33,424 nt of DNA from a bacterium. GTDB lineage: Bacteria; Bacillota_I; Bacilli_A; RF39; UBA660. Where the stretch lies: NCBI GenBank assembly GCA_029100545.1, contig JAQXPH010000025.1, positions 1 through 33,424 on the forward strand. The letters run 5' to 3'. The notes under the pieces are model-generated. The model ran no database searches, had not been told where the DNA came from, and saw nothing but the letters and a program-made list of their open reading frames with translations. Of this stretch, positions 296 to 33,294 are shown piece after piece (positions within the stretch are counted from its first letter, which is position 1; every line of letters begins with the position of its first letter). The translations under genes were made by a program, and so were the position numbers.

Positions 296-3200
296 CTATA
301 TTTTTCTTTCAATATTAATACCAACATTTGCATCATTTAATTTCATATCTTTTGAAATATTTTCATCGAAATTTATTTCTAATGCTAATGTTTCATTTTT
401 TACATAGTCAATATTATCTTTAATAGAACTAGAAAATTCTTCATCAGCATTCATATTAATAATAATTCTATCGGCTATATCAAAATCTTTTTCTTTACGC
501 ATAGCTTGAACTTTTGATACAAATTCTCTAGCATTACCTTCTTTTTTTAGTTCATCAGTAATAACTGCATTTAAAATAACAAAATTACCATTTTCCATGC
601 CAATATCAAAGCCTTCTTTAGCACTATAACGAATATCTACAAGTTCTGGTGTTATATTATAATTTTCATTATTTATATTAAGTTCAATACTTTTTCCTTG
701 TTGAAGTTCATTAATTTCTTTTGAAGATAAATTTAATAATGCTTCTTGATATAATTTCATATTTTTACCAATTACTTTTCCTGCTTCTTTAAAATTTGGT
801 AAAACTTTAAAATTCATATATGTATTAATATCATTAACAAATACTACATTTTTTACATTTAATTCTTCTTTAATTAAATTTACTAAATCACTAAGTATAT
901 TTTCATTTTTACCATCTATTAATACTTCAGATAAAGGTTGACGTACTTTTATTTTATTTTCTTCACGTACAAATCTTCCGATACTTATTAACTGTCTTAC
1001 TAAATCCATTTTTTCCTCTAAAACAGGATTAATTAGCTTTTCATCACATTTTGGATAAGTACTTAAATGAACTGATTTTTCATTTGTTAATTTTTGATAT
1101 ATTTCTTCAGATATAAATGGAGCTAAAGGTGCAATTAATTTAGAAAGACTTACAAGAACTTCATAAGTTGTTTTATAAACAGCTTTTTTCGAAGTACTAA
1201 ATTCACTTCCCCAGAATCTTTTTCGACATCTTCTTATATACCAATTTGATAAATCATCAGAAACAAATGAAGTAATAAATTTAACTACTTTATTTAAATC
1301 ATATTCTTCAAAAGAAGAGTTTACATTTTTAACTAAATTATTATATTTTGAGAGTAACCATTTATCAATTTCTTCAAGTTCATTAAAACTAACATCGCAT
1401 TTTCCAATATCTATATTATCAACATTAGCATATAGACAAAAGAATGAATATGTATTTTTTAATGGATTAATAAATTTAGAATATACTTCTTTTACTCCTT
1501 CTTCATCAAATTTAAGTGGTGTCCAAACTGGTGATGCATAAAGCATGTACCATCTTATTGCATCAGCACCATATTCTTGCATTATATTAATTGGGTCAAT
1601 AATATTACCAGTTGATTTACTCATTTTTTTACCTTTAGCATCAAGCATCATATCATTTACAACTACATTTTTAAAGCTTGATTTACCAGATATAATTGTA
1701 GAAATAACTAATAATACATAGAACCATCCTCTTGTTTGGTCTATACCTTCCGCTATAAAATCAGCAGGAAATTGACTTTCAAAAAGTTCTTTGTTTTCAA
1801 ATGGATAATGATATTGAGCATAAGGCATAGCTCCTGAATCAAACCAAACATCCATAACATCTTTAACTCTTGTCATAGTCTTACCACATTTTGGACAAGT
1901 TAAATGGATATTATCAACATAAGGTCTATGAAGTTCCAAATTTTTGACATCAATATCTTTTTCAACTTTTCTATCATTAAGTTCTTCAACTGAACCAATT
2001 ACATCAAAATGATTACAACTATCACAAACCCAAATAGGAAGTGGACAACCCCAATATCTATTTCTTGAAATTCCCCAATCTATCATATTTTCAAGCCAAT
2101 TATTAAATCTTTTTGTTCCAACATAATCTGGATACCAATTTATGCTTTCATTAGCTTTAATAATTTTATCTTTATATGCAGTTGTTTTTACATACCATGC
2201 AGGTTTTGCATAATAAATAAGTGGGCTTTTACATCTCCAACAATGTGGATAATCATGAGTTAATTTGATCTTTTTAAATAATTTATCATTTTCTTTTAAA
2301 TATTTAATTATTTCAATTTCAAGATCACTATCAGTTACTAGTCTTCCTTTCCAAGGACCAATTTTATAGCATCCATCTTTGCCAACACTTTGAGAAAAAG
2401 ATATACCATTTTCATTACATACTCTATTATCATCAGCACCATAAGCTGGAGCAATATGAACAAGTCCTGTTCCATCTTCTGCGGTAACATAACTATCACA
2501 AACTACTTCAAAAGCTTTACCAGAAACTTCTGCAAAAGGCATTAGTTGTTCATATTTTGTACCTTTTAAATCTATACCTTTAAAAGTTTTAAGGACTTTA
2601 TATTCATCGCCAAGAACTTTTTGAGCAAGAGTAGAACAAACAATAAATTTATATCCCATAGACTCTACTAAAATATAATCATAATCTGGATTTACACAAA
2701 CTGCAACATTATCAATAAGTGTCCACGGAGTTGTAGTCCATACAAGCATATATTCATCTTTACCAACAATTTTAAATGGCACGATTACTGTATTTACTGT
2801 ATCAGATTGATAGCCTTGCGAAACTTCATGACTTGCAAGTTCTGTTCCACATCTTGGGCAATATGGTAAAACTTTAGAACCATAATAAACTAAACCCTTT
2901 TCATGCATTTGTTTTAAAATCCACCATTCACTTTCAATATAATTATTTTCACAAGTAACATATGGATTTTTAGTATCAATAAATTGGCCCATCATTTTTG
3001 TAACTTTATCTACTTCATTAATATTAGTTTTTGTTTCTACATTACATTCTTTACAAAAATTTTCTACACCAAATTTTTCAATATCTGCTTTACCAGAAAA
3101 TCCTAATTTCTTTTCAACATTTACTTCAATAGGTAGACCATGTGTATCTAAACCAATTTTACGTAAAACTTTATATCCATTCATAACTTTATATTTACAA

Positions 3201-3397
3201 AATGAATCTTTAATAGTTTTAGCAAATACATGATGAATTCCAGGTTTTGCATTAGCATATATTGGTCCATCATAAAATACCCAAGTTTTATCTCCTTTAG
3301 TACTTTCCTTTAAAATGTTTTCTTTTTCCCACTTTTCTAAAATATCATTTTCAACTTTAGAAACTTCTCTAGTATCTAGTTTTTTAAATTTTTCCAT
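296..3397 (-). CDS. ileS: Isoleucyl-tRNA synthetase, type 2, with GIHH signature motif
   Basis: Charges tRNA-Ile with isoleucine in the cytoplasm. About 1033 residues, normal length. The N-terminal catalytic core has FYDGPIYANAKPGIHH near residues 41-56, the CP1 editing domain has TTPWTLIDNVAV, and the KMSKS loop is intact (GKKMSKSTGN). The C-terminal anticodon domain is present. Overall the protein resembles the eukaryote-like IleRS2 rather than the usual bacterial IleRS1. The HxGH position reads G53-I54-H55-H56, so the first and third positions are swapped relative to HxGH. The ORF track begins four codons upstream at a TTG; the ATG at 3397 is preferred because GGAGGT lies just before it. 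A T-box leader controls it. Stop is TAG. Confidence 0.96.
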   Translation of the reverse strand: MEKFKKLDTREVSKVENDILEKWEKENILKESTKGDKTWVFYDGPIYANAKPGIHHVFAKTIKDSFCKYKVMNGYKVLRKIGLDTHGLPIEVNVEKKLGFSGKADIEKFGVENFCKECNVETKTNINEVDKVTKMMGQFIDTKNPYVTCENNYIESEWWILKQMHEKGLVYYGSKVLPYCPRCGTELASHEVSQGYQSDTVNTVIVPFKIVGKDEYMLVWTTTPWTLIDNVAVCVNPDYDYILVESMGYKFIVCSTLAQKVLGDEYKVLKTFKGIDLKGTKYEQLMPFAEVSGKAFEVVCDSYVTAEDGTGLVHIAPAYGADDNRVCNENGISFSQSVGKDGCYKIGPWKGRLVTDSDLEIEIIKYLKENDKLFKKIKLTHDYPHCWRCKSPLIYYAKPAWYVKTTAYKDKIIKANESINWYPDYVGTKRFNNWLENMIDWGISRNRYWGCPLPIWVCDSCNHFDVIGSVEELNDRKVEKDIDVKNLELHRPYVDNIHLTCPKCGKTMTRVKDVMDVWFDSGAMPYAQYHYPFENKELFESQFPADFIAEGIDQTRGWFYVLLVISTIISGKSSFKNVVVNDMMLDAKGKKMSKSTGNIIDPINIMQEYGADAIRWYMLYASPVWTPLKFDEEGVKEVYSKFINPLKNTYSFFCLYANVDNIDIGKCDVSFNELEEIDKWLLSKYNNLVKNVNSSFEEYDLNKVVKFITSFVSDDLSNWYIRRCRKRFWGSEFSTSKKAVYKTTYEVLVSLSKLIAPLAPFISEEIYQKLTNEKSVHLSTYPKCDEKLINPVLEEKMDLVRQLISIGRFVREENKIKVRQPLSEVLIDGKNENILSDLVNLIKEELNVKNVVFVNDINTYMNFKVLPNFKEAGKVIGKNMKLYQEALLNLSSKEINELQQGKSIELNINNENYNITPELVDIRYSAKEGFDIGMENGNFVILNAVITDELKKEGNAREFVSKVQAMRKEKDFDIADRIIINMNADEEFSSSIKDNIDYVKNETLALEINFDENISKDMKLNDANVGINIERKI

Positions 3398-3409
3398 TTT
3401 TACCTCCAA

Positions 3410-3620
3410 TAAAAAAAGGTAGTAACCAAAGGGTGCATTAGCACGGTACCACCTTTATATTTAACTTTTTATGTTAACGCCATTATACGTCCTATTCTAT
3501 TTACTTAAATAGGAAACTAGCAAGTGATCTAAATTATTATCAATTATTAATTTTCACCAACCATTAACTCTCTAAAAATTAAATAATAATTCCGTCTTGT
3601 TCATAATCTTTTAAAACTAT
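3410..3620 (-). promoter_or_regulatory. T-box riboswitch (Ile) in front of ileS
   Basis: On the minus strand the leader contains the T-box sequence AAAGGTGGTACCGTGC followed by GCACCCTTT. A terminator helix then forms between AAAGGTGGTA and TACTACCTTT, ending in a U-run just before the ileS ribosome site. Stem I is full length: its base pairs CAAG with CTTG, and a long AATTATTATT/GATAATAATTT helix and AGAGAG/GGTTGGTGAAA elements follow. The specifier loop holds ATC (3528-3526), an isoleucine codon, followed by A as expected. Uncharged tRNA-Ile should favour the antiterminator and switch ileS on. Confidence 0.93.
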
Positions 3621-20665: not shown

Positions 20666-22045
20666 CTAAAATTTGATTTTATCATTAATATATGAAGCAA
20701 CCTCTGAAATATTTAATGTAATTTGCTGCATTGTATCACGATTTCTTAAAGTTACGGTTCCATTATTTATTGTTTCATCATCAATTGTTATTGCAAAAGG
20801 TGTTCCAATAGCATCTGATCTTCTGTAACGCTTTCCAATATTACCAGTTTCATCATAACTACAATTAAATTCTTTAGTTAAATTCCTATAAATTTCTTTA
20901 GCCTTTTCACTATGAAATTTCTTTACAAGAGGAAGCACTGAAACTTTATAAGGTGCTAAGTATGGATGAAGTTTAAGAACTTCACGAATAGAACCATCCT
21001 CTAAAGTTTCTTCATTATAAGCATCACATAATATTGTTAAAAATAATCTTTCAACACCTAGTGATGGCTCTATAACATAAGGAATATATTTTTCATTAGT
21101 TTCTGGGTCTAAATATTTAAGACTTTCGCCAGAAAATTTTTCATGTTGACTTAAATCATAATCAGTTCTTGATGCTATACCCCAAAGTTCACCAAATCCA
21201 AAAGGAAAATTATATTCAATATCAGTAGTTGCATTACTATAAAAGCATAATTCTTCAGGACTATGATCTCTTGTTCTTAAATTTTCGTTTTTAATTCCTA
21301 AGTTTATTAAGAAGTCTATACATTTTTGTTTGTAAAAATTAAACCATTCAAGTTCAGTTCCCGGTTTACAGAAAAACTCTAATTCCATTTGTTCAAATTC
21401 TCTAACTCTAAAAATAAAGTTACCTGGAGTTATTTCATTTCTAAAACTTTTTCCGACTTGACCTATTCCAAATGGTACTTTTAATCTCATACTTCTTTGA
21501 ACATTTAAAAAATTAACAAATATTCCTTGAGCAGTTTCAGGTCTTAAATATATAGTACTTTTTGCTTCTTCAGTAACTCCTTGAAAAGTTTTAAACATTA
21601 AATTGAATTGTCTAATATCAGTAAAATCACTTTTGCCACATTTTGGACATGTAATATTATTTTCTTTAATAAAATCTACTAGTTTTTCATTACTCCAACC
21701 ATCACCAGTTTCACGTCCTTTGGTAAAATCTTCAATTAATTTATCAGCACGATATCTTGATTTACAATGTTTACAATCTACTAAAGGATCTGCAAAAGTT
21801 TTTAAATGACCTGATGCTTCCCATACTTTTGGATTCATTAAAATACCACTATCTAAAGAAACATTATTTTCATCTTCTTGAATAAATTTTTGCATCCAAG
21901 CATTTTTAATATTCTTTTTAAGTTCTGCTCCTAATGGGCCAAAATCCCAACTATTTGCAAGCCCTCCATAAATTTCGCTACCTTGAAATATAAAACCATA
22001 TTGTTTGCAATAATTTGTTAGCTTTTCCATTGTTAATTTTTCCAT
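20666..22045 (-). CDS. glyS: Glycyl-tRNA synthetase, single-chain dimer type
   Basis: 459 residues, the alpha2 (eukaryote-like) GlyRS. N-terminal [23 protein letters not shown], an insert with CxxCK and CPKCGKSD zinc-type cysteines, and the class II motifs [22 protein letters not shown] and [15 protein letters not shown] are present. The C-terminal anticodon domain ends near [15 protein letters not shown]. It charges tRNA-Gly. GGAGGAAATT precedes the ATG. The Bacillus cluster has glyQ-glyS (two-subunit type) next to recO; here the single-chain type sits at the same locus. A T-box leader precedes it. Confidence 0.96.
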
Positions 22046-22184
22046 AATTTCCTCCTATAATTAAAAAATTCCTTTAAAAAAATAATATAGGGACGAATTT
22101 TAATCCGCGGTTCCACCCTAATTATTCCTTAAAGGAATCACTTTTATTTAATTATCGCTCTAGGATTCCAACCCCGTCATCGCT
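22046..22184 (-). promoter_or_regulatory. Very short T-box leader in front of glyS
   Basis: The canonical T-box sequence AGGGTGGAACCGCGG (22119-22105) is followed by AATTCGTCCCTAT and a U-run, which form the antiterminator/terminator pair. Upstream there are only about 65 nt to the predicted transcription start. These hold a small hairpin with GGA in its loop region (GGGGTTGGAATCCT; GGA is a Gly codon) and a stem ATTCCTT/AAGGAAT before the T-box. A standard Stem I (about 90-100 nt) does not fit. Confidence 0.85.
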
Positions 22185-22190
22185 AAAAAT

Positions 22191-22219
22191 ATTATAAACT
22201 AATATTTTATATTTTACAA
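22191..22219 (-). promoter_or_regulatory. Promoter of the glyS T-box transcript
   Basis: TTGTAA (22219-22214), 17 nt, TATAAT (22196-22191). It lies directly after the tdk terminator, which supports a start near 22184. Confidence 0.7.
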
Positions 22220-22240
22220 CAAAAAACACTATTTATTTAG
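22215..22240 (-). terminator. Terminator of tdk (end of the yqfC-tdk run)
   Basis: AACGCTA pairs with TAGTGTT (one G-U pair) around AATAAA, followed by TTTT. The TAA of tdk lies in the left arm. Confidence 0.65.
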
Positions 22241-22863
22241 CGTTTTAGTATTCTTTTGTATTCAATTACTTTATCTTTTTCTTCTTTATTTATAACCTCA
22301 TTTAAATAACATGTAGAACAAAGGGGTACATAACTAACATCATTATCACCATCTATTGCTACTATATCACCATCATAAACAAATCTACCATTAACTTTTC
22401 TAGCATTAAATACTGCCGTTTCACCACATTTACAATTTACAGTTAATTCATTTTTACGATCAGAAAAACCTATTAAAGCCTCTGTCCCAGGAAAAAGCCT
22501 TCCTCTAAAATCACTTTTTAAAGCATAACATATTACCGTTATACCTACTTCATGAGCAAGCATCCAAAACTCAATTATTTGTTTTTCTGATAAAAATTGT
22601 GCTTCATCAACTAAAATTACTTCCGTATTTTTTATAAGGGAAATATAATTATCATCAAAAATAGAATCTTCACTACCAAGTAATATATCAACATTTGCAC
22701 TATCATTTGTTCTATTAATTACTGTATTTCCACCTTTTGTATCAATTAAAGGCTTTATAATTAAAACTTTGTGTCCATGTTTACGATAATTAAAGTTATC
22801 TTGTAAAAGTTTTGTTGTTTTACCACATTCCATTGTGCCATAAAATAATGTTAAATCTGTCAT
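22237..22863 (-). CDS. tdk: Thymidine kinase (type II, zinc-containing)
   Basis: 208 residues. P-loop GTMECGKT (9-16), the catalytic Glu in LVDEAQFL, YALKSDFRGRLFPG and the lasso/thymidine-binding part GRFVYDGD are present. Four zinc cysteines are seen in the pairs CKC and CSTC. It phosphorylates salvaged thymidine to dTMP. Its ATG abuts the recO stop, with AAGGAG inside recO, so the two are co-translated. Confidence 0.95.
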   Translation of the reverse strand: MTDLTLFYGTMECGKTTKLLQDNFNYRKHGHKVLIIKPLIDTKGGNTVINRTNDSANVDILLGSEDSIFDDNYISLIKNTEVILVDEAQFLSEKQIIEFWMLAHEVGITVICYALKSDFRGRLFPGTEALIGFSDRKNELTVNCKCGETAVFNARKVNGRFVYDGDIVAIDGDNDVSYVPLCSTCYLNEVINKEEKDKVIEYKRILKR

Positions 22864-32034: not shown

Positions 32035-33294
32035 TTACCTTTCTAAATCACTAAAACTATTTTCTTTAGTATAAAAATTATCAATATCAGCATACTCAAA
32101 TAGTTCATCTTCTTTTGTAGTATCTATTGCTATATCATAAATATCATCTTTATCAAAATCATTGTTATCATAATAATCCTTTATTTCGTTTGTAGTGGCT
32201 TCTTTCGTCTTCTCATTACCAATTTGTAGTAAATGCCTAAAGAAGTCCTTAATTGCCTTTAAAATGGCTTTTATGTATGAAATAAGGTTATCATTTTCTT
32301 TCTCTAGTTTTTGATTTTTAATTCTTAAATATTTAACTTCTTTTTGTATATTTTCATTTTCTTTTTCTAGAAATCTATATGATTTAGCATACTCACCAAC
32401 TTCTTTATAAACTTTTTGAATTTTAGGTTGTATTTCCATAACTTTTTTAGTTTGCTCTATAACTTTATTCATAGAGTCAAATGTATCTTTTTTTACTTTA
32501 ACATATTCTTTATCAAAAATGGTTTCTTTGTTAGAGCCCATTTTTTGTTCTAACTCTAACATAGATTTATTTAATTTTTCGTTTTTAGAAGTAAGTTCTA
32601 TATTTAGTTTTCTAGTAATCTTTTTATATTGTTTTATATCAATGTGTTCATTATCACTATTTTTAATACCACGATCCAAATCATAACCATTATTAATCAT
32701 TCTTTCGTGGTATTTATCTTGTAGTGTAGATAAATAATTTTTATCTTTCATATAATATTTTTTAGATATAGTCCATTTTTCTTTATCACTTCGTTTATCA
32801 TATTTTTTAATTAAAGGAACAACTACACAATGCAAGTGTGGTGTTTTTTCATCTAAATGAATTGTAGCATTTAATACTTGCCATTTCTCATAACCAACAT
32901 CTTCATAAACAAAATCCATACAACAATTAGCCCATTTAACTATTTCATCTTTAGTCATATCTTTAAAGAATTCTTTATCACTTGTAAATAATAATTCATC
33001 TGCTATAACACTATTAGAATCATCTAACATTTGACTAAAACTTTTCTTTCTATTTTCTCTTTCAGTCTTTTGTTTTTCATCGTGTTGTTTCTTATAATCT
33101 TTAACTAAATTCATATAAGAATTATAATAGTCTTTATGTAGGGGTGAAATTAAGTGTATATTATTAACTGATTTACTTTTATCTATATCAGGATTAGACT
33201 TATAAGCTTCTTTAGTTCTTGTGTTATGAGCACCAATTTGTCCTAAGTCTTTTAATTTATTTATTGGCTCAACTCTAAATATTGCATAACTCAT
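32035..33294 (-). CDS. MobV-family relaxase (Pre/Mob)
   Basis: 419 residues. Motif I has AHNTRTKE, with His23 where MobM of pMV158 uses its catalytic His22. Motif III HLDEKTPHLHCVVVP supplies the metal-binding histidines. A long coiled coil (about 230-340) and an acidic tail ending SDLER complete the protein. It would nick oriT, stay bound to the 5' end and lead transfer with help from a resident conjugative element. GAGGT precedes the ATG, and the upstream gene overlaps the start by 20 nt. No integrase is visible in the window, so plasmid and IME origins both remain possible. Confidence 0.93.
   Translation of the reverse strand: MSYAIFRVEPINKLKDLGQIGAHNTRTKEAYKSNPDIDKSKSVNNIHLISPLHKDYYNSYMNLVKDYKKQHDEKQKTERENRKKSFSQMLDDSNSVIADELLFTSDKEFFKDMTKDEIVKWANCCMDFVYEDVGYEKWQVLNATIHLDEKTPHLHCVVVPLIKKYDKRSDKEKWTISKKYYMKDKNYLSTLQDKYHERMINNGYDLDRGIKNSDNEHIDIKQYKKITRKLNIELTSKNEKLNKSMLELEQKMGSNKETIFDKEYVKVKKDTFDSMNKVIEQTKKVMEIQPKIQKVYKEVGEYAKSYRFLEKENENIQKEVKYLRIKNQKLEKENDNLISYIKAILKAIKDFFRHLLQIGNEKTKEATTNEIKDYYDNNDFDKDDIYDIAIDTTKEDELFEYADIDNFYTKENSFSDLER

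Follow-up and report, generated by a model that had tools for sequence, protein, structure and literature searches.

Type 2 isoleucyl-tRNA synthetases (IleRS2) carry the class I signature motif in two published forms, the canonical HXGH and a form, G/AXHH, in which the first and third positions are swapped. The swap was described by Brkic et al. in 2023 (PMC10485003), who counted 86 G/AXHH against 77 HXGH enzymes among bacterial IleRS2, found none in IleRS1, and recognized at least two origins. Its effect on inhibition by mupirocin is large: Ki changes roughly 200- to 800-fold. Swapping the motif raised Ki from 0.20 to 35 µM in the enzyme of T. thermophilus (TtIleRS2) and from 1.08 to 460 µM in that of P. 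megaterium (PmIleRS2); in the reverse direction, the D. radiodurans enzyme, whose natural motif is ALHH, fell from 6.6 mM (6600 µM) to 8.1 µM when made canonical (PMC10485003). Natural cases of hyper-resistance come from Streptomyces griseus and Deinococcus radiodurans, and for the former an earlier paper gives a Ki of 10 mM (PMC4861432). In these enzymes the third His replaces the first in catalysis, and its clash with mupirocin has been modelled. The authors favour antibiotic pressure as the cause, the swap costing natural enzymes little activity (PMC10485003).

An earlier note on the DNA analysed here had referred to published work as reporting hyper-resistance from a GXHH variant in some Bacilli. 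The hyper-resistance is as stated, but the organisms are not: the natural cases are the two just named, and the Bacillus-group enzyme studied there, that of P. megaterium, is naturally HVGH and was mutated. The note had also taken HYGH as the norm for type 2 enzymes; in fact Ile, Val, Leu, Met and Tyr can all occur as the second residue.

The window, by which we mean the whole stretch of 33,424 nucleotides, contains one complete ileS gene, whose features are collected in the table. The protein scores 926.9 bits against the TIGR00392 ileS model, above the cut-off, and contains the Pfam domains tRNA-synt_1, Anticodon_1 and DUF5915. We place the start at the ATG at 3397-3395, which has GGAGG ahead of it; the open reading frame list runs on to a TTG at 3409.

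Features of the ileS locus (window coordinates)
Feature	Position	Strand	Basis
ileS, type 2 isoleucyl-tRNA synthetase by sequence, 1033 aa, complete	296..3397	-	TIGR00392, PDB and Pfam matches
Ribosome-binding region, GGAGG closely 5' of the ileS ATG	3398..3410	-	Sequence
Class I signature motif, swapped, G53-I54-H55-H56	3230..3241	-	Direct reading and alignment to solved IleRS2
KMSKS motif, residues 591-595	1613..1627	-	Coordinates computed from residue number
T-box leader of ileS, specifier AUC (isoleucine)	3426..3613	-	Rfam RF00230, 86.1 bits, E 1.6e-19

On the minus strand the codons at the motif read CCT GGA ATT CAT CAT GTA, that is, GIHH instead of HIGH. Counted from the ATG, the four residues fall where the earlier note had numbered them, within 3227-3245. 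They represent a true change in the signature motif, not an error of placement, because the alignment with P. megaterium IleRS2 passes through this region without gaps and sets GIHH on the column occupied by HVGH in the wild type and by GVHH in the engineered mutant. The other hallmarks that the note had called intact are so: besides KMSKS and the T-box, WTTTPWT and GTGLVHIAPAYGADD were found as motifs of the editing domain.

By sequence and phylogeny the enzyme is of type 2 (the eukaryote-like kind), as had been proposed. Its closest solved structures are those of Priestia megaterium IleRS2, among them 8c8u (HVGH) and 8c8w (GVHH), which align over the full length; the four entries for this enzyme are the best PDB matches, at 956-950 bits, and the mutant 8c8w ranks first, above the wild-type entry. 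They are followed by T. thermophilus IleRS2 (751 bits), by eukaryotic enzymes, and then by IleRS1 (367 bits or less), so that within P. megaterium itself the comparison stands at 956 bits for PmIleRS2 vs 367 for PmIleRS1. A maximum-likelihood tree, which carries flagged long branches and whose deep joins are to be read with care, places the window protein among type 2 enzymes, well separated from the type 1 enzymes that occur in its own family. Its nearest outside group there consists of P. megaterium IleRS2 (support 88/72, moderate) together with two type 2 enzymes from other families of the class, both bearing HIGH.

The window enzyme thus has every sequence feature of the G/AXHH kind: type 2 by sequence and phylogeny, with Gly first in the motif and His third and fourth. 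Like the enzymes of D. radiodurans (ALHH) and S. griseus, it has positions 1 and 3 of HxGH swapped, the fourth His and KMSKS kept, and it appears to be a sole housekeeping enzyme. Unlike them, it is known here from sequence, its host belongs to an uncultured, Bacilli-like family, and its X is Ile. P. megaterium differs in having HVGH as its natural motif and both types of IleRS in one organism. MupA and MupB, the mobile mupirocin-resistance enzymes of staphylococci, are type 2-like, as is the window IleRS, but the latter scores 887 and 876 bits against the NCBIfam MupA and MupB models, far under their cut-offs of 1900, and is encoded by a single chromosomal gene with a T-box, not by an extra copy beside a native ileS.

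A DNA scan for P-G-x-H-H, correctly spaced relative to the GP of DGP, found this pattern in 199 of the 241 genomes of the window's order, and the canonical type 2 pattern, PHxGH, in 0 of the 241. Among the loci retrieved, 99 have GxHH at these positions, a count that takes in L134 and the locus of the window itself, and one has GLNH. Of the genomes without a pattern match, 43 were examined, and in 10 of them, including one (G003) of the window's own genus, a search at E 1e-80 found no IleRS; these may be assembly gaps. The others mostly carry IleRS1; those read have HIGH, HLGH, HVGH or HCGH. One holds an IleRS fragment without its N-terminus. Beyond the family, a class-wide scan for xxHH yielded a single match that looked IleRS-like by eye, in G403 (GMHH in a GPITANN context); the remaining matches did not look IleRS-like and were attributed to chance. 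When proteins were searched across the phylum, the only type 2 relatives from outside the family were L169 and L170, both with HIGH. The swap is no peculiarity of the window genome, since roughly half of bacterial IleRS2 have it and most of the order is fixed for it. Very probably it was passed down in the family, and this genome did not acquire it recently as a resistance trait. The GLNH locus (L149, G200:C56) is a fragment of a window-type IleRS at a contig end, in which the third His is replaced by Asn, one base away from His; the copy may be decaying, or the assembly may be wrong at this point.

Taken as a whole, the account we consider very probable, which in essence upholds the earlier note, is that of a housekeeping type 2 IleRS that naturally bears G/AXHH, is controlled by an isoleucine-specific T-box, relies on His55, resists mupirocin, and inherited its motif within the family. 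The third-position residue, His55, most likely stands in for the usual first His in the transition state, a catalytic function that we infer from the characterized enzymes. The side chain of His55 would also block mupirocin, giving very high resistance, probably with a near-millimolar Ki. Hyper-resistance is predicted here by analogy with the measured G/AXHH enzymes, and its degree is uncertain because the published Ki for GXHH spans 35 µM (engineered) to 6.6 mM. If the prediction holds, most members of the order would be intrinsically insensitive to mupirocin. A published, resistance-linked variant is here extended across an entire order whose members are uncultured bacteria. The window gene itself is well explained and largely ordinary: the type of swap is already published and is the normal state of the lineage, and the gene adds a record of distribution and no new mechanism.

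Whether mupirocin had anything to do with the motif is a separate matter. The motif may have arisen, or been kept, for some other reason (another inhibitor, altered use of ATP, or drift), with resistance as a by-product. We hold this to be possible but somewhat unlikely. It would suit a motif that is nearly fixed across the family, in which the window and the searches gave no sign of current mupirocin exposure, and where a second clade of type 2 enzymes tolerates both HxGH and KxHH; against it stand the preference of the published authors for antibiotic pressure and the small loss of activity in natural enzymes (PMC10485003). Such an origin is in any case compatible with the prediction of resistance.

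That the window ileS is a degenerate or resistance-only duplicate, with housekeeping left to another ileS, we judge very unlikely. Its assembly (1.13 Mb) is 92.8% complete, so a second gene could be missing, but the search for one that the earlier note had proposed returned a single IleRS, and most complete relatives likewise have one. The other matches in the assembly score weakly, at 23-139 bits, in line with what other class I synthetases should give, and are presumably ValRS, LeuRS and MetRS matching part of the query. Moreover, the gene is intact, has its T-box, and is conserved across the family. We rejected the duplicate reading on these grounds; as the sole IleRS found, the window gene very probably encodes the organism's housekeeping enzyme, presumably active in aminoacylation. 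That the motif is an artefact of sequencing or assembly is hardly conceivable and was also rejected, because the same motif recurs in many independent assemblies (the 199 genomes and 99 loci given above).

The isoleucine-specific T-box that would regulate ileS matches RF00230 over its full length, upstream of the gene, and its AUC specifier triplet was read by eye from the alignment. The default Rfam scan missed it because its score lies slightly under the gathering score of 93; a search by E-value recovered it. A second T-box-like leader, at 22086-22249 (-), scores 52.2 bits, also below gathering, and is also missed by the default scan; it precedes an open reading frame (20666-22045) that looks like a glycyl-tRNA synthetase.

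Other kinds of IleRS occur in the same family. Many of its genomes have a type 1 enzyme in place of the GXHH type 2 (L137-L148, L150-L154, L158-L164). Because type 1 and GXHH type 2 are found in species of the same genus (e.g. g6, g14, g31 and g73), the type used for housekeeping, an essential enzyme, has been exchanged more than once. Six genomes without a pattern match encode a second type 2 enzyme that is distant from the window protein (36-38% identity). Its motif is KIHH in four genomes, all of one genus, and GIHH and HVGH in one relative each. The KIHH enzymes (L135, L155, L156 and L157) belong to genus g17, and KIHH is present in all four genomes where they were found; at E 1e-80 no other IleRS appears in their genomes, and the three enzymes checked have KFSKT in place of KMSKS. 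Since their close relatives L134 and L136 have GIHH and canonical HVGH, respectively, the motif has switched within a small clade. KIHH lies outside the published definition of G/AXHH, and the literature searched yielded no paper that applies the term KXHH to an IleRS.

There is about an even chance that the family has three interchangeable kinds of housekeeping IleRS: GxHH type 2, HIGH type 1, and the second type 2 clade with its GxHH, HxGH and previously undescribed KxHH forms. If so, the first position would be free to vary once the third-position His is in place, and the family would offer a natural set of variants in which to examine how the most conserved motif of class I enzymes can be altered. 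As leads, the KIHH genus and the exchange of one IleRS kind for another in this family are more novel than the window gene; the genus would also matter more than that gene, as it would test whether position 1 tolerates anything besides Gly or Ala.

At 32035-33294 (-), close to the contig end, the window encodes a Mob_Pre plasmid recombination/mobilization protein (PF01076, 111 bits), which suggests the boundary of a mobile element.
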